NCBI RefSeq assembly: GCF_023660105.1
Contig: NZ_JAMHGA010000044.1
Location: forward strand, 1-64,000
Length of the DNA: 64,000 nucleotides
From: Desulfovibrio aminophilus
GTDB lineage: Bacteria; Desulfobacterota; Desulfovibrionia; Desulfovibrionales; Desulfovibrionaceae
Direction of reading: 5' to 3'
The notes below the pieces were generated by a model. The model saw nothing but the letters and a program-made list of their open reading frames with translations, was not told the origin of the DNA and ran no database searches. Shown here piece after piece: positions 9,539 to 49,635 of this stretch. Position 1 is the first letter of the stretch; every line of letters begins with the position of its first letter. A program made the translations under genes and the position numbers.

Positions 9539-9934
9539 ATGAGAGCCCTCATCGCCGAAGACGAATTCCTGAGCCGCAAGATCCTGCTCTCCTACCTGAC
9601 GACCCTCTTCGACGTGGACATCGTGGTCAACGGCAAGGAGGCCGTGGACGCCTTCAGGATGGCCCGCGAGGAGGGCCGCCCCTACGACCTCATTCTCATG
9701 GACATCATGATGCCCGAGGTGGACGGCATGCAGGCCCTGGAGATCATCCGGGGCGAGGAACGGGAGGGCAAGACCCGGCGTCCGGTGCGGGTCATCATGA
9801 CCACGGCCCTGGACGATCCCAAGGTGGTCATCCGCTCCTTTCACGAGGGCGAAGCCTCGGGCTACATCGTCAAGCCGGTGATCAAGGAAAAGCTGTACGC
9901 CGAACTGGAGAAGCTGGGTCTGTTGGGAAGATAG
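9539..9934 (+). CDS. Single-domain response regulator (CheY-like)
   Basis: A 131-residue receiver domain with no output domain. Acidic pocket E7/D8, phosphorylation site D55 (LILMDIMMPE), switch residue T88 or T89 and K112 (IVKPVIK) are all present. The ATG at 9539 is the only sensible start; GGAGG lies 11 bases upstream. It begins a three-gene unit with the Hpt-STAS protein (16 bases on) and the CheA-like kinase, which should act as its phosphodonor route. TTGACA at 9468-9473 may be part of its promoter, but no matching -10 box was found. Confidence 0.92.
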   Translation: MRALIAEDEFLSRKILLSYLTTLFDVDIVVNGKEAVDAFRMAREEGRPYDLILMDIMMPEVDGMQALEIIRGEEREGKTRRPVRVIMTTALDDPKVVIRSFHEGEASGYIVKPVIKEKLYAELEKLGLLGR

Positions 9935-9950
9935 CGCGCCGGGGGACGGC

Positions 9951-10700
9951 ATGGGCGAAGACGACGCCTTGGTCGAGGAGTTCTTCTCCGAGGTCAACGA
10001 CAAGTATTCCCCCCAGGTCATGGAAGGCCTGGGGCTGCTCGAGGCCGGCGACATCCAGGGCGGCATCGAGATTCTCGCCCGCCCGCTGCACACCATCAAG
10101 GGCGTCACCGGCTTCATGACCGGCTTCGAGGCCGCCTCCCGCTTCACCCACAAGGTCGAGGACTACCTCAAGAAGGTCCAGTCCGGCGAGGTCGAGCCCA
10201 CGGAGCAGAACGTGACCCTGCTCTCCCTGGGCGTGAACATGATCTTCACGGTCATCGAGCAGATCCGCGAACAGGGAGCCCCGGACGAGAGCGAGACCAC
10301 GGAGATGCTCGAACTCCTGCGCCAGGCCTCCGGCCCGGGCGGCGCGGCCGCCGCCGAGGCCAAGGCCCGGGTGGAGATCGAGCAGCGCGACGGGGTTCTC
10401 ATCCTGCGCGTCCTGGCCCGGCGCATCCACCTGGGCCCGGAGCGCGAGACCCTGACCCGCGCCGTGGCCGCCGTGCCCGAGGGCGGCAAGGCCCTCCTGG
10501 ACTTCTCCGGCGTGCTCACCGTGGGCTCGGCGGCCTGGGAGGCGCTGGCCGCCCTGGCCGAAAAACGCGAGATCGCCGTCGCCGGTCTGAGCTTCGACTG
10601 CCGCAGCGTGTTCTATTCCTGGGGCCTGGACCGGGCCTTGCGCGCCTTCGCCTCGGCGGAGGACTACTTCCAGGCGGCCTCCGCGCCGCCCGGGCAGTGA
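9951..10700 (+). CDS. Histidine phosphotransfer (Hpt) and STAS two-domain protein
   Basis: A 249-residue protein. Residues 1-110 form a full Hpt helix bundle with ARPLHTIKGVTGFMTG; H47 is the expected phosphorylated histidine. After an Ala/Gly linker, residues 136-245 form a STAS-like domain (ILRVLARRIHLGPE, ALLDFSGVLTVGSAAW). The Hpt part is the P1 domain usually found at the start of CheA, and the CheA-like gene 7 bases downstream lacks this histidine. The two thus probably form one split kinase. The STAS domain could localise it or sense a ligand. I know no assigned name for this arrangement. Confidence 0.8.
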   Translation: MGEDDALVEEFFSEVNDKYSPQVMEGLGLLEAGDIQGGIEILARPLHTIKGVTGFMTGFEAASRFTHKVEDYLKKVQSGEVEPTEQNVTLLSLGVNMIFTVIEQIREQGAPDESETTEMLELLRQASGPGGAAAAEAKARVEIEQRDGVLILRVLARRIHLGPERETLTRAVAAVPEGGKALLDFSGVLTVGSAAWEALAALAEKREIAVAGLSFDCRSVFYSWGLDRALRAFASAEDYFQAASAPPGQ

Positions 10701-10707
10701 GGCGGCC

Positions 10708-12369
10708 ATGCTCGACAGCATCCAGCAGTGCATCGAAACCCTGGAGCAGGGCGTCCTGGACCTGGAATCCGGCTCGGGCCGGACCGCCGAGGTCATGGAG
10801 AAGCTCGGGCTCTCGCACGTGAAGCTGCCCTCGGCCCAGGTCATCACCCTCCTGGACATGCTGGCCGACGGCATCACGCCCATGAACCAGGACATCGTCT
10901 CGGCCTTCCTGGGGGTCTGCGAGGCGCACAAGAAGCTGCTCTACGCCCTGGCCGGATTCCTGGAGCAGGGCGCGGGCGTGCTGCGCTCCGGCAAGGAGCT
11001 GGCCCCGGCCCAGGTGGACGCGCCCATCCCCGCCGCGCCCCCGGCCCAGGAGGAGGCCGCCCCGGCCGGACAGCCCGAGGAGCACCACGACGAGCACGCC
11101 CAGGACAAGGTCCACGAGGCCCAGGCACACGCCCGCCAGGCCATAGCCTCGGTGCGGGTGGGCACGGACCGGCTGGACAAGCTCATCGAGCTGGTGGGCA
11201 AGCTCATGGTCACCTACGCGGTCATCTCCCAGGCCGGGAACGGCGACATGGCCAAGACCCTGGCCGGACTGCGCGACATGGACTCGGTCATCGGCCGGCT
11301 CCAGACCGAGGTGGAGGCCATCCGGCTCGTGCCTCTCAAGCAGATCGTCGCGCCCATGCAGCGGCTGGTGAAGAGCCTGAGCCAGAAGATCGGCAAGAAG
11401 GTCCGCTTCGAGATCGAGGGCGAGGACCTGGCCCTGGACAAGTCCATCGTGGAGTCGCTCAACGAACCCCTGGTGCACCTGCTGCGCAACGCCCTGGACC
11501 ACGGCCTGGAGCCCGCCGAGGAACGCGCGGCCGCGGGCAAGAACGAAACCGGCACGGTGCGGCTCTCGGCCCTGCGCAAGGGCGAGACCGCCTACCTGCT
11601 CGTCTCCGACGACGGCCGCGGCATGGACCCCGAGCGCATCCGCCGGAAGGCCGTGGAAAAGGGACTCATGAAGGAGTCCGAGCAGCTCCCCGAGGCCGAC
11701 ATCCTCCAGTTCATCCTCAAGTCCGGCTTCAGCACCGCCGAGCAGATCACCGACGTCTCGGGTCGGGGCGTGGGCATGGACGCGGTGGTCAACGCCATCC
11801 GCGTGGGCCTCGGCGGGGACATCCTCATCGAGAGCGACCTCGGCAAGGGCGCCACCTTCACCATCAGCATCCCGCTCTCGCGCTCGGCCAACGAGGGCAT
11901 CGTGGACGCCCTGGTCTGCCGCCTGGGCCAGGAGGTCTTCCTCATTCCCAGCCGGGACGTGGTGGAGATCTACGCCCCGGCCGAGCGCGACGTGGTGGCC
12001 CTGCCCGGCGACCGCGAGACCGTGGACGTACGCGGCGAGGTCCACGCCCTGCTGCGCCTGGACCGCTTCCTGGACACCCCCTCGGACGGGCGGCCCATCG
12101 ACCGCAGCCAGGCCGTGGTGGTCCGCGTGGGCGACGCCCGGGCGGCCATCCTGGTGGACGAGGTCCTGCGCCAGCAACAGGTGGTCATCACCGGCTTCAC
12201 CGTGCCCGTGCAGGACATCTTCGCCCTGCCCATCCTGGGCCTCGGCATGATGGGCGAGTCCGACGCCGTGGTGGTCAACGTGGAGGAGCTGCTGCGCCAC
12301 TTCCAAGGCCGGACGCCCCCGCCGCAGGACTCCGGGCCGTCCTTGACAGCGCTTCCCGGCCAGGGATAG
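10708..12369 (+). CDS. CheA-like histidine kinase lacking the phospho-histidine
   Basis: A 553-residue kinase. Residues 1-97 resemble the latter helices of a P1 domain but contain no HTxKG site. Then come a Pro/Ala/Glu/His linker (98-135), a dimerisation helix pair (GTDRLDKLIELVGKLMV), an HATPase domain with LLRNALDHGLEP (N box), DDGRGMD and GRGVGMD (G boxes), and a C-terminal CheW-like domain ending near residue 540. The kinase must phosphorylate a histidine in trans, most simply H47 of the preceding Hpt-STAS protein. No CheW, MCP, CheR or CheB gene is nearby, so this is probably not a flagellar chemotaxis set. Confidence 0.85.
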   Translation: MLDSIQQCIETLEQGVLDLESGSGRTAEVMEKLGLSHVKLPSAQVITLLDMLADGITPMNQDIVSAFLGVCEAHKKLLYALAGFLEQGAGVLRSGKELAPAQVDAPIPAAPPAQEEAAPAGQPEEHHDEHAQDKVHEAQAHARQAIASVRVGTDRLDKLIELVGKLMVTYAVISQAGNGDMAKTLAGLRDMDSVIGRLQTEVEAIRLVPLKQIVAPMQRLVKSLSQKIGKKVRFEIEGEDLALDKSIVESLNEPLVHLLRNALDHGLEPAEERAAAGKNETGTVRLSALRKGETAYLLVSDDGRGMDPERIRRKAVEKGLMKESEQLPEADILQFILKSGFSTAEQITDVSGRGVGMDAVVNAIRVGLGGDILIESDLGKGATFTISIPLSRSANEGIVDALVCRLGQEVFLIPSRDVVEIYAPAERDVVALPGDRETVDVRGEVHALLRLDRFLDTPSDGRPIDRSQAVVVRVGDARAAILVDEVLRQQQVVITGFTVPVQDIFALPILGLGMMGESDAVVVNVEELLRHFQGRTPPPQDSGPSLTALPGQG

Positions 12370-12372
12370 ACG
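12343..12372 (+). promoter_or_regulatory. Promoter candidate for the cobalamin operon
   Basis: TTGACA (12343-12348), 18-bp spacer, TAGACG (12367-12372), inside the last codons of the CheA-like gene. It would start transcription near the 5' edge of the riboswitch. The -35 box is perfect, the -10 box poor. Confidence 0.4.
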
Positions 12373-12560
12373 GAAGGCTCCTTCAGGCGCCCGCGAGGGC
12401 TTCATAGGGAATCCCGTGCGAATCGGGAGCGGTCCCGCCGCCGTAAGCTTCATGCAAAGCCCGTCCCCGCGACGGCCACTGGGGAAACCTGGGAAGGCCG
12501 GGACAGGTGAAGCGAGCCGGAAGACCTGCCTGGAGGTGTCGAGGCCGGTTCGGCGTCCAC
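12372..12560 (+). ncRNA. Cobalamin (B12) riboswitch
   Basis: The leader contains the B12-box landmarks in order: AGGGAATCCCGTGCGAATC, CGGTCCCGCCGCCGTAA, CCACTGGGGAAACCTGGGAA and AGCCGGAAGACCTGCC. This is a class I cobalamin aptamer. Adenosyl- or related cobalamin binding should promote the terminator at 12603-12640 and switch off the genes downstream. The stem GGTTCGG...CCGAACC (12547-12580) links aptamer and terminator and may belong to the expression platform. Boundaries are approximate. Confidence 0.93.
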
Positions 12561-43921: not shown

Positions 43922-44485
43922 TTATTGCGGCTTGTTCACCAGAACCTTGGCCGGCCGCAGGAGCCGATCCTTGAGCAGATAACCCTTCTGGGCCACCTGG
44001 GTCACGAAGCCGTCGGGCAGGTTCGGGTCCTGCACCGCGCCGAGGGCCTCGTGGCGGTTGGGGTCGAAGAGCACCCCGGTCTCGTCCACGGGGGTCAGGC
44101 CGTGGTTCTTGAGGATGTCCAGGAAGACCTTGCGGGTCATGTCCACGCCCATGACGAAGTCCTTGCAGCCCTCGCCCGGGGCGTGGTTCAGGGCCAGGTC
44201 CAGGTTGTCCAGCACGGGCAGCAGGTCGGCCAGCACGGACTGGCAGGCGAACCGGCGCAACTCCTCGGTCTCGCGCGAAAGCCGCTTGCGCGTGTTGTCG
44301 GCCTCGGCCAGGGAGCGCAGGCGCACGTCCTCGGCCTGCTTCATGACCTCGCAGCTCGGGCAGACGTGGCTCTTGCAGAGCGCGGCCAGCTCCTCCTCGC
44401 TCAGGGTCAGCTCCGGGGCCTCGCCCGGCGTCTTGTCTCCATTGGTCACGGGAATCTCTTGGTCCTTGCTTTCCTCGACGGACAT
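43922..44485 (-). CDS. grpE: Nucleotide exchange factor GrpE with N-terminal cysteine cluster
   Basis: GrpE releases ADP from DnaK. The 187-residue protein has a long coiled coil (EADNTRKRLSRETEELRR), VLPVLDNLDLALNH and the beta-domain tail YLLKDRLLRPAKVLVNKP. Unusual for GrpE is C37-x4-C42-x2-C45 (LCKSHVCPSCEV) just before the coiled coil. These could bind a metal or form disulfides across the dimer, giving a redox input; similar cysteines occur in other Desulfovibrio GrpE sequences as far as I recall. It lies first in grpE-dnaK. Confidence 0.94.
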   Translation of the reverse strand: MSVEESKDQEIPVTNGDKTPGEAPELTLSEEELAALCKSHVCPSCEVMKQAEDVRLRSLAEADNTRKRLSRETEELRRFACQSVLADLLPVLDNLDLALNHAPGEGCKDFVMGVDMTRKVFLDILKNHGLTPVDETGVLFDPNRHEALGAVQDPNLPDGFVTQVAQKGYLLKDRLLRPAKVLVNKPQ

Positions 44486-44500
44486 GAGTCACCTCTCGGC

Positions 44501-44527
44501 AAAAAATCGCGGCGGAAGACCGCCGCG
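44501..44527 (-). terminator. Hairpin and T run between aminopeptidase gene and grpE
   Basis: CGCGGCGG-TCTT-CCGCCGCG (44527-44508) followed by ATTTTTT on the minus strand, 73 bases past the aminopeptidase stop. It looks like that gene's terminator. It also lies at the predicted 5' end of the grpE transcript (start near 44526), where it could instead act as a 5' mRNA-stabilising hairpin. Confidence 0.6.
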
Positions 44528-44532
44528 CCCAT

Positions 44533-44560
44533 GAGGTAAGCACGGCTCATGGGTTGTCAA
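44533..44560 (-). promoter_or_regulatory. Promoter candidate of grpE-dnaK
   Basis: TTGACA (44560-44555), 16-bp spacer, TACCTC (44538-44533) on the minus strand. The same geometry, TTGACT-N16-TACCTT, precedes cbpA. No CIRCE inverted repeat for HrcA was found, so an alternative sigma factor such as RpoH is plausible. Confidence 0.45.
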
Positions 44561-44599
44561 CGGGCACGGGCCGGGCGAACGCCGATTTTTTCCCGGAAT

Positions 44600-45802
44600 T
44601 CAGCGCAGGAAGCGGCCGTTCTCGTAGATCACGCGCGCGGCCCCGCCGGGCAGCGCGGCGGTCACGGCCTTGGGCTCGGTGTTCACCAGGTCCCAGTGCA
44701 GGGCCGAGGCGTTGAAGCCGAACTCGGCCTCCATCTCGGGCGTGAGGATTTCCAGCGGGCCGGAGTAGCTGGACAGCGGAGCCGAGCCCAGGGCGATGTG
44801 GCAGTTGCCCCGCTCCCCGCCCAGGTTCTCGTCCAGCAGGGTGTGGGCCATGAACTGCGTCACGCGCGAGAAGCGGCTGTCGGTGAGCGAGAACTCGCCC
44901 AGGCGGCGGGCCCCGGCGTCGGCGTAGAGCCGCTGCTGGAGGAACTGCCCTCCCCTGGCGGCCTCGGCGCGCACGGCGATGCCGTTCTGGAACTCCAGGC
45001 GCGCGCCGAGCACGAGGTGGCCCATGTGCAGCGAGGGCTGGTCGGCGTAGAAGACCCCGCGCGCCGAGCGGCCGTCCGGGGCGATGTACAGCTCCCCGCC
45101 CGGGATGTTGGCCCCGTTCACGCCCACGAAGCGGCGATGCGGTCCGGGCTCCACGGTCAGGTCGCAGGAGGCGGACTCCAGGCGGTAGGACGTGGCCTTC
45201 AGCCCGTCCAGCCAGCGGCCGGTGTCCTCCACCTCCTCGCGCAGGCGCTTCCACTCGCGCACCGGATCGGCCATGTTCAAATAGCAGGCCCGGGCCAGGA
45301 GCCGGGCGTATTCCTCCAGGTCCACCCCGGCCGCGTCGGCCAGGGCCTGGGTGGGGTGGAGGCAGGTGGTCCAGCCCAGGAGACCGGCCCGGCGGCGGCG
45401 CTCCAGGACCTGTCCCGCGTGCAGACGGCCCTGGCGCATCTGGTCCACCACCCGGGGGTCCACGTGGGCCAGGTGGCCGGGATCGGCCGGGGCCAGGATG
45501 TTCAGCACGCCGGAGGTCTTCTGGAACAGCTCCACCTCGCCCGGCTGCTCGAAGGTGAGCTGGCCGAAGCTGCCGTTCTCGCAGAGGCAGGCCTCCATGC
45601 CCGGGGTCGGCCGGGAGAGACAAAGCGGATGGAGATGGGCGTCGATGAGCCGGGCATAGACCGCCTCGGCCAGGTCCGCGGCGGGCACGTCGTAGCGCAC
45701 GAGCACGAGATCGCCGTTCTTGAACGGCACGTCCCGCGAGGTCGTCAACGCCCAGAACAGGACGTCGGCGTAGGATTCGAGATCGTTAGGGGTAAAGCTC
45801 AA
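44600..45802 (-). CDS. M29 family aminopeptidase (AmpS/AmpT-like)
   Basis: A 400-residue cytoplasmic metallo-aminopeptidase. Family features are the N-terminal YADVLFWALTTSRDVPFKNGDLV and the metal-site region EFSLTDSRFSRVTQFMAHTL, then LLDENLGGERGNCHIALGSA and NASALHWDLVN, containing the Glu, His and Asp ligands of M29 enzymes. I start at the TTG at 45802 (LSFTPNDLES), with AGGGA 9 bases upstream and agreement with family N-termini; another TTG at 45847 would add 15 residues lying in the AT-rich border. It lies upstream of grpE but with a terminator between. Confidence 0.8.
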   Translation of the reverse strand: MSFTPNDLESYADVLFWALTTSRDVPFKNGDLVLVRYDVPAADLAEAVYARLIDAHLHPLCLSRPTPGMEACLCENGSFGQLTFEQPGEVELFQKTSGVLNILAPADPGHLAHVDPRVVDQMRQGRLHAGQVLERRRRAGLLGWTTCLHPTQALADAAGVDLEEYARLLARACYLNMADPVREWKRLREEVEDTGRWLDGLKATSYRLESASCDLTVEPGPHRRFVGVNGANIPGGELYIAPDGRSARGVFYADQPSLHMGHLVLGARLEFQNGIAVRAEAARGGQFLQQRLYADAGARRLGEFSLTDSRFSRVTQFMAHTLLDENLGGERGNCHIALGSAPLSSYSGPLEILTPEMEAEFGFNASALHWDLVNTEPKAVTAALPGGAARVIYENGRFLR

Positions 45803-45913
45803 TATGGCGTCCCTATATGTTTCGACGAAAACAGACCGACCTCGCAAACGCTTTTCCCATCGCTACTGAGGCAAAGATGCCAAGAGCTGGTTAACTTAGA
45901 TAGATTTTACTTG

Positions 45914-45942
45914 TTGAAACCGTTTATTCTTGTTGATAAATA
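45914..45942 (+). promoter_or_regulatory. Promoter candidate for the AT-rich orphan gene
   Basis: TTGAAA (45914-45919), 17-bp spacer, TAAATA (45937-45942), about 66 bases before the gene. The region is very AT-rich, so alternatives exist. The remaining sequence of 45848-46007 shows no other recognisable element. Confidence 0.4.
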
Positions 45943-46007
45943 AAATTATATCCTAATAAGATAGCCTTAACAACTCAGTCATCGCAAAACAGAAACGAGC
46001 CTATCCT

Positions 46008-46994
46008 ATGCGTAGTGTCAACTCCTCGGAATTCTCCAAAATATCTTATTTGGATACAACTAATCTTGCCGGAAGGATTATTCCGCTTCACCCCTGTTAC
46101 CACGAAAACGGTGAATGGGAGATGTGGATTGATCATGATGGCAAGCTAATCCCTATGCGGTGTTGCGGAGTGATCGACGGAGTATATTGGGGAAAGATAA
46201 AAGCTGTAAATTCACATCAAAATCTCAAATTTATGAACGTTGCCTATAAGCGATTATCATTCAATGAATTGAGTATTGTAATTAATGGAATATATAATGA
46301 TATATTAAATTTGTCGTGTACATTTTCGAAGTATGATATTTATATAAATTATGATAGCAATCGAACGGCACTTTCCAGAATAATATCAAGCGAGCTCGAA
46401 TTTATTTTTTCTACAGCAAGAAGCATTTTTGATTTAATGCAAGAGTATATCAGAAAATTAAGAGAAAGAATGATTAATTGCAACACCAACAGCAAATTAC
46501 CAAGTATTAAAAAATCGTTTGCATCAATTGTCCTATGCGGCTGTCGCCTCGTTACTAAAAATGAAATGATTTTAAAATATAAAATTGAAGACGGCCTTGC
46601 CGATTGTTATGCAAAACATGCAAAATTTTTCCTATGGGTTAGAGATATCCGCGATAAAATAATACATAGCCCTAAAAATTTTGATCTTATATTTGCCGGG
46701 GAAGAAGGATTCTCCGTTTTAACGCGCAATAGGTTGTTTTCAGATATTGAAATATGGAACGAAATCAACACACTGCGACCTAATAGTCTTGGATCAGTAA
46801 AATCATTAACCGCATACATAATAAATAAACTTATGCTCATGCTTGATGACTTTTTTTCATATTTTGAATCTAACTATCAATTACCGCCTGACATCGCGCC
46901 GAAACACAACCTATTTTCCTGCAGTCCTCACATTCACCATCTCGAAAAATTAAATTCTTATATGACGACCGAAGCCTGGTACTCGAAAAAATAA
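46008..46994 (+). CDS. AT-rich orphan gene, HEPN-like protein
   Basis: A 328-residue protein with base and codon use (AAA, ATA, TTA, AAT frequent) wholly unlike its GC-rich neighbours, so almost certainly acquired. Residues 195-225 contain FFLWVRDIRDKIIHSP, an R215-x4-H220 motif followed by Ser-Pro, as in HEPN RNases and HEPN-type toxins; helices predicted from pattern flank it (120-160, 260-295). The N-terminal 70 residues have WIDHDGKLIPMRCCG and a CC pair. No Shine-Dalgarno is obvious. No partner antitoxin or nucleotidyltransferase gene adjoins it. Function unknown; a defence or toxin role is a hypothesis. Confidence 0.7.
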   Translation: MRSVNSSEFSKISYLDTTNLAGRIIPLHPCYHENGEWEMWIDHDGKLIPMRCCGVIDGVYWGKIKAVNSHQNLKFMNVAYKRLSFNELSIVINGIYNDILNLSCTFSKYDIYINYDSNRTALSRIISSELEFIFSTARSIFDLMQEYIRKLRERMINCNTNSKLPSIKKSFASIVLCGCRLVTKNEMILKYKIEDGLADCYAKHAKFFLWVRDIRDKIIHSPKNFDLIFAGEEGFSVLTRNRLFSDIEIWNEINTLRPNSLGSVKSLTAYIINKLMLMLDDFFSYFESNYQLPPDIAPKHNLFSCSPHIHHLEKLNSYMTTEAWYSKK

Positions 46995-47019
46995 GGCCGA
47001 GCATCCCGCCCGGCCTTAT
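46986..47019. terminator. Bidirectional terminator between orphan gene and clpB
   Basis: ATAAGGCCG (46991-46999) pairs with CGGCCTTAT (47011-47019). A run of six A at 46986-46991 gives a T run on the minus strand, ending clpB transcripts; on the plus strand TATTGATTAATT follows, a weaker run for the orphan gene. Confidence 0.75.
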
Positions 47020-47022
47020 TGA

Positions 47023-49635
<2,613 letters not shown>

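Follow-up and report, generated by a model that had tools for sequence, protein, structure and literature searches.

The stretch of DNA analysed here (the window) comprises 64,000 nucleotides of Desulfovibrio aminophilus (NCBI RefSeq assembly GCF_023660105.1, contig NZ_JAMHGA010000044.1, positions 1 to 64,000 of the forward strand), the host genome (G000) being a 3.54-Mb draft. At positions 9539-12369 it carries three genes on the + strand that encode a lone receiver, a protein in which a histidine phosphotransfer (Hpt) domain is fused to a STAS domain (hereafter Hpt-STAS), and a CheA-type kinase without a phospho-histidine. The genes are closely spaced, with 16 bases between receiver and Hpt-STAS and 7 bases between Hpt-STAS and kinase. 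An earlier note on this DNA, made from its letters, had given the same coordinates, order and strand, and had described a kinase with dimerisation, HATPase and CheW-like domains but no HTxKG histidine, a preceding gene that joins an Hpt domain (H47) to STAS, and a lone receiver before both. Pfam searches, alignment and structure prediction bear out this description, and the features are as follows.

9539..9934, + strand: lone receiver protein, 131 amino acids (aa), CheY-like, without an output domain (Pfam Response_reg, 65.5 bits)
9701-9703, + strand: codon of receiver D55
9951..10700, + strand: Hpt-STAS protein, 249 aa (Pfam Hpt, 27.1 bits, above the cut-off; AlphaFold2 model; Foldseek)
9957..10334, + strand: Hpt domain of Hpt-STAS, of the CheA P1 type (conserved HTIKG residues; profile match to 2ld6)
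10089-10091, + strand: codon of H47, the predicted phospho-acceptor of the Hpt domain, in the motif RPLHTIKG (sequence)
10371..10697, + strand: STAS domain of Hpt-STAS (Foldseek; hidden Markov model (HMM) search against PDB)
10527-10529, + strand: codon of S193 of the STAS domain, at a helix start and aligned with the GS of Mycobacterium tuberculosis RsfB
10708..12369, + strand: CheA-type kinase, 553 aa, without phospho-histidine (Pfam, alignment to solved CheAs, motif scan)
10708..10992, + strand: putative relic P1 (Hpt) domain of the kinase, residues 1-95 (hhalign against 73 Hpt domains)
10792-10800, + strand: place of the HxxKG stretch missing from the putative relic P1, about residues 29-31 (profile alignment)
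11149..11403, + strand: dimerisation region (P3) of the kinase, weak by Pfam (H-kinase_dim, 20.8 bits, under the cut-off of 23.0; alignment to solved CheAs)
11467..11880, + strand: HATPase_c domain (P4) with N, G1, F and G2 boxes intact (Pfam, 57.3 bits)
11908..12300, + strand: CheW-like domain (P5) (Pfam CheW, 56.9 bits; PF01584 search of the own genome)

With a profile of Hpt-STAS, 83 of the 348 class genomes gave a strong match by count from the match table (170 bits or more, the next matches standing at 60), the named relatives being Desulfovibrio and Pseudodesulfovibrio records. In a phylum-wide sample of 395 genomes, matches were found in just 3, all belonging to the same family. The 83 genes include one truncated at a contig end and one split into two frames, and a stretch around each of them, the window's own included, was taken for comparison. 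The order receiver, Hpt-STAS, kinase on one strand is kept in 79 of the 83 loci, and the kinase follows Hpt-STAS on the same strand in every one, so the earlier note's refuting case, that homologues of the trio are never found together, does not hold. Among the four loci without a receiver, one (L054) begins within Hpt-STAS at a contig end, and three (L055, L056 and L159) truly have none within 3 kb. In L160 (G289) the Hpt-STAS gene lies in two pieces in different frames and looks broken, while receiver and kinase remain.

The division of the phospho-histidine between kinase and partner is complete in this set. An HxxKG motif occurs in the first 140 residues of none of the 83 kinase orthologues, and the only invariant histidines of the kinase, H257 and H265, both belong to the ATPase N-box. 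The remainder of the enzyme is that of a CheA: residues 148-526 align with solved CheA cores (1b3q, 3e-67), and the N-box, G1, F and G2 residues are kept in all 82 sequences with letters there. Hpt-STAS, in turn, carries R44-P45 and H47-T48-I49-K50-G51 in 83/83 proteins. Its Hpt profile matches the P1 domain of Thermotoga maritima CheA (2ld6, 1.1e-10), CheA P1 folds are among its best PDB matches by Foldseek, and comparison of the trio Hpt with a CheA-type Hpt profile gave 100% by hhalign.

Could the kinase nevertheless phosphorylate itself? H37, in the stretch LGLSHVKLPS, is the commonest N-terminal histidine outside the N-box, and on this account the kinase would be a complete CheA with an odd P1. 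The residue is kept in only 49 of the 83 kinases, the remainder having N, C, R, S, K or A there, and in the profile alignment it falls after the gap described below, off the phospho-histidine column; together with the missing HxxKG this led us to reject H37 as a phospho-site, and we regard the account as highly improbable. The earlier expectation that the kinase has no phosphorylatable histidine of its own thus stands, as judged from these motifs.

What the earlier note overlooked is a probable remnant of P1 on the kinase. Residues 1-95 form a conserved helical domain for which Pfam and PDB profile searches with the N-terminus alone returned nothing significant, Rhodobacter sphaeroides CheA3 P1 being listed at E 0.55. 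We compared a profile of 81 kinases, two of the 83 being too short, with 73 Hpt domains from other CheAs and from a sister family described below. In local mode hhalign matched the kinase N-terminus with the CheA-type Hpt at 93.0% probability and a score of 43.8, leaving a 10-residue gap in the kinase opposite FRTAHSIKGA of the Hpt. None of 200 column shuffles reached this score (best 25.8), reversed alignments scored 13 and the kinase's own P3 19.4; circular rotations of the alignment scored high and were judged to be no null, so that reliance is placed on the shuffles, the reversals and the P3 control. The match persisted without the two most divergent loci, L055 and L056 (89.5%), and the gap over the HxxKG motif recurred in two more comparisons. 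We conclude that the kinase N-terminus is probably a relic CheA P1 that has lost its phospho-acceptor stretch, and that the kinase would have descended from a complete CheA. In a kinase-core tree made by a quick method from 42 rows (30 of the 81 available trio kinases, L055, L056 and 10 other CheAs), one branch (Shimodaira-Hasegawa-like approximate likelihood ratio test support 95) separates every P1-less kinase from the 10 ordinary CheAs, with L055 and L056 outside the trio. The exact place of these two is unsure because both are long branches.

The receiver completes the set of relay residues: E7, D8 and D55 are invariant in all 79 trio receivers. Among the receivers compared, the closest outside the trio are the C-terminal domains of two neighbouring proteins in a chemotaxis cluster of another genome (G042; L208, 8313-10106), which has a CheA and apparent CheR and CheB genes. 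The second of these proteins is a clear Hpt-receiver fusion, which supports phosphotransfer between an Hpt and a receiver of these kinds.

The STAS part is less evident from sequence profiles. Pfam STAS and STAS_2 scores in the window protein (15.0 and 15.6) stay under the cut-off; the assignment is nevertheless retained because of the AlphaFold2 model and Foldseek. The model of Hpt-STAS (mean predicted local distance difference test (pLDDT) 84.7, predicted template modelling (TM) score 0.52, nine sequences) consists of a helical Hpt and, after it, a STAS fold, for which the best PDB matches are anti-sigma-factor antagonists, with TM scores by target length of 0.77-0.78. The domain is accordingly predicted to have the anti-anti-sigma fold. 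By HMM comparison, the STAS profile finds its best PDB sequence in RsfB, the anti-sigma-F antagonist of M. tuberculosis, the two aligning GS on GS, and the aligned RsfB serine is, we assume, the one that is phosphorylated. The corresponding S193 opens a helix in the model, and Ser or Thr occupies this position in 80 of the 82 proteins with a residue there (Ser 77, Thr 3, Arg 1, Pro 1). R158 is invariant in the STAS domain; at the aligned position SpoIIAA presumably has another residue. Pfam found no CheW-like domain on Hpt-STAS, returning Hpt, a weak STAS and a single sub-cut-off match at chance level.

Genes of a partner-switching kind are linked to Hpt-STAS in two of the 83 loci, which are also the most divergent and two of the three truly without a lone receiver. 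In L055, from another family of the order (G043), the genes that precede Hpt-STAS encode two histidine kinases, a receiver, an HD-GYP protein, a SpoIIE-type PP2C and, directly upstream of it, a HATPase_c_2 protein (RsbW-STAS), whose second half we read as STAS-like, a reading backed by its homology to the protein in L056. In L056 (G032) an orthologue of this RsbW-STAS lies directly upstream of Hpt-STAS, and a receiver-PP2C gene adjoins on the other strand. With the L055 RsbW-STAS as query at 1e-6, matches among 16 trio genomes were confined to G043, G032, G026 and G015, those in the last two being weak and away from the trio. As for the window genome, an RsbW-like domain (PF13581; G000:C34) was rejected as a partner, being fused to an apparent acetyltransferase (by eye); the remaining candidate is a PDC-HAMP-PP2C-HATPase_c_2 protein on contig C23, unlinked to the trio.

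The weak matches in G026 and G015 led to a second protein that combines Hpt and STAS, of about 372 aa (P0007, P0008), with Pfam scores of 62-68 bits for Hpt and 31-41 bits for STAS_2 and a middle segment that is P2-like by eye (Hpt-linker-STAS). Its clusters hold receiver-PP2C genes and RsbW, which may or may not carry STAS; a complete CheA is present at two of the first three loci. Matches that reach through the STAS part were counted from the match table in 40 genomes of the class; profile matches across the class did not include the window genome. The loci of this sister family are L173, L175, L176 and L178-L207, of which the last 30 were scored as 4-kb stretches: PP2C and RsbW homologues stand beside Hpt-linker-STAS in all 30, and a CheA core also in 18. 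Both of the two adjacent CheAs that were checked keep HTIKG. On the strength of these 30 loci, an association of Hpt-STAS proteins with CheA and partner switching appears to be general in the class.

In the window the trio is flanked by a divergent SpoU methylase on one side and, downstream, by a cobalamin riboswitch and then CbiK. No methyl-accepting chemotaxis protein (MCP), CheW or adaptation gene is found next to it, for CheR and CheB without a genome-wide search, and the earlier note had likewise placed no methyl-accepting protein, CheR or CheB beside it; the contig's closest MCP lies at about 111.6 kb. The genome as a whole has two ordinary CheAs with their own Hpt, 10 CheW-domain matches in the PF01584 search and 29 MCP matches. 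The set stands between SpoU-type methylase and CbiK genes in 71 of the 83 loci; of the eight loci that lack both flanks, five still carry the whole trio. The set thus occurs in at least two kinds of neighbourhood. The riboswitch (RF00174, 96.3 bits, 12368-12547), whose start overlaps the kinase stop codon, heads a cobalt/corrinoid set with two CbiK, ABC-type uptake genes, a tetrapyrrole methylase and a RACo-type corrinoid activator. A functional tie between the trio and the cobalamin genes was rejected because the latter have their own riboswitch and because the eight loci without methylase or CbiK flanks keep the Hpt-STAS/kinase pair. Upstream of the set in L154 (74-6130) and L159 (1716-6191) lie large proteins with solute-binding, PAS, histidine kinase, receiver and Hpt domains. 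Elsewhere in the window, G+C falls to 0.589 at 44001-48000, against about 0.70 in the remainder.

The explanation that we favour, with moderate confidence, is a split-CheA phosphorelay whose Hpt protein carries a partner-switching domain. The kinase (P3-P4-P5) would use its CheW-like domain to sit within or beside a chemoreceptor/CheW complex; because the HxxKG stretch is gone, it should be unable to phosphorylate itself at the relic P1, and it would instead phosphorylate H47 of Hpt-STAS in trans. This last step, already proposed in the earlier note, is very likely to be correct, as in all 83 genomes the motif is missing from the kinase and present in its partner, and as the genes remain adjacent across neighbourhoods. 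H47 would in turn hand the phosphate to D55 of the lone receiver, a transfer that we consider likely. Input through chemoreceptors is plausible in view of the CheW-like domain, of an MCP gene that follows the kinase by about 40 bases in L154, the only locus where one was seen beside it, and of the 5 to 43 MCP matches present in each of the 35 trio genomes searched. On the output side, STAS would turn the phospho-carrier into a partner switch that binds an RsbW-type anti-sigma kinase or a comparable target, and phosphorylation of S193, perhaps together with the state of H47, would govern this binding. A partner switch is the output that we prefer, with the balance of evidence close to even, and its weakest step, a sigma-type output in the window organism, is plausible. 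More tentatively, it is possible that a single protein unites the phospho-histidine of a CheA relay with an anti-anti-sigma STAS switch, such that the kinase would gate partner switching by histidine phosphorylation without a receiver-phosphatase intermediate, the RsbW arm having been replaced by the lone receiver in most Desulfovibrionaceae carriers.

Several observations weigh against this reading as a whole. In 81 of the 83 loci, the window included, the flank that was fetched showed neither an RsbW nor a PP2C homologue, and for these loci a sigma-type output is therefore something that we infer; the window genome also yielded no RsbW-STAS homologue at 1e-6. The sub-cut-off Pfam scores for STAS have been mentioned above. 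Most members have G in place of the D that precedes the STAS serine, S193 itself is R or P in one genome each, and the three sister proteins that were aligned do not generally keep the serine (A, S, F). As for the relic P1, the profile of the partner's own Hpt does not resemble the kinase N-terminus (0.1-0.3%), and the kinase model is poor (mean pLDDT 56.8), so that structure prediction, which the earlier note had suggested for the pair, served for Hpt-STAS only; the fold of the relic P1 is without structural confirmation and the kinase model is used for no fold claim.

The missing flanking genes would suit an ordinary split chemosensory kinase, in which kinase and Hpt amount to one CheA in a receptor array, the receiver is its CheY, STAS does no more than place or oligomerise the Hpt protein, and partner switching is absent from these species. 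The retained CheW-like domain and the MCP gene of L154 also fit such a system, and R. sphaeroides CheA3 and CheA4 are described as functioning as one CheA for the motor (PMC10782961). Since MCPs are present in 35/35 trio genomes, their presence does not separate the two explanations. What tells against the ordinary chemosensory system is the Ser or Thr kept at the STAS phospho-site in nearly all members, the RsbW-STAS adjoining in the two divergent loci together with PP2C and RsbW throughout the scored sister loci, and the lack of an adjacent MCP, CheW or adaptation gene in the window; we consider it rather unlikely. The same evidence leaves the earlier suggestion of an anti-anti-sigma-like role partly standing, favoured by those two receiver-less loci and the sister family and opposed by the 81 loci without either gene, whereas its addition "rather than chemotaxis" goes beyond the data, given the retained CheW-like domain and the chemoreceptors.

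It is also conceivable that Hpt-STAS serves as a shared acceptor or sink for the two ordinary CheAs of the genome as well, the P1-less kinase being an allosteric scaffold and not an active kinase. The presence of those CheAs would allow this; an inactive scaffold is hard to square with ATP-binding motifs that are kept throughout and with a kinase gene that follows Hpt-STAS at every locus, and we hold it to be improbable.

If the split-relay explanation is true, the trio would be a clear case of a CheA taken apart, in which the phospho-histidine has left the kinase for a second protein, where it is combined with an anti-anti-sigma domain. With only three proteins, it would be a simple system in which to study how specific trans-phosphorylation is, and it would connect chemosensory kinases directly with partner switching in sulfate reducers, a connection open to testing.

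Among known systems, the canonical Che cluster, in which an MCP, CheW, CheR or CheB is encoded with the kinase, is not what the window holds. Of the RsbV/RsbW/RsbU arrangement it has the STAS fold and the Ser/Thr switch site, without linked RsbW and PP2C genes. SpoIIAA, RsbV and RsfB, which include the best structural and sequence matches, share the STAS fold and the serine at the helix start; here, by contrast, STAS is fused to Hpt, and the window has no RsbW. The sister Hpt-linker-STAS family likewise has Hpt and STAS on one protein beside a CheA, and differs in its greater length, its P2-like middle segment and an adjacent CheA that keeps HTIKG.

In Desulfovibrio vulgaris, a 2014 study of three CheAs left the roles of two open and, in the part of the text accessible to us, did not use the word Hpt (PMC3944678). 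In Shewanella oneidensis, the Che1 locus has been tied to the CrsR-CrsA partner switch, which is said to control RpoS (PMC9855816). A chemosensory cluster and a partner switch with a STAS protein are thus common to both cases, although CheA1, CrsR and CrsA are separate proteins accompanied by a full Che set, and the available portion of that source mentions no Hpt-STAS fusion (PMC9855816). The nearest precedent is the bipartite CheA: Berry and colleagues reported CheAs without Hpt, the Hpt being a separate gene of the same operon, as in R. sphaeroides, where CheA4 consists of P3-P4-P5 only and another protein of that operon, CheA3, has the Hpt (PMC10782961). The present set agrees with it in having a kinase core with dimerisation, ATPase and CheW-like domains, no Hpt-type histidine on the kinase and an adjoining Hpt gene. 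In R. sphaeroides, however, CheA3 keeps CheW and degenerate kinase domains and has no STAS (PMC10782961), whereas Hpt-STAS has no CheW-like domain; moreover, the present Hpt is joined to STAS, the set opens with a receiver gene and the kinase appears to keep a relic P1. The word STAS is absent from PMC10782961, and searches of the open-access literature, to which we were confined, found nothing on an Hpt-STAS fusion; we therefore regard the bipartite CheA as already published and its Hpt-STAS fusion version as new.

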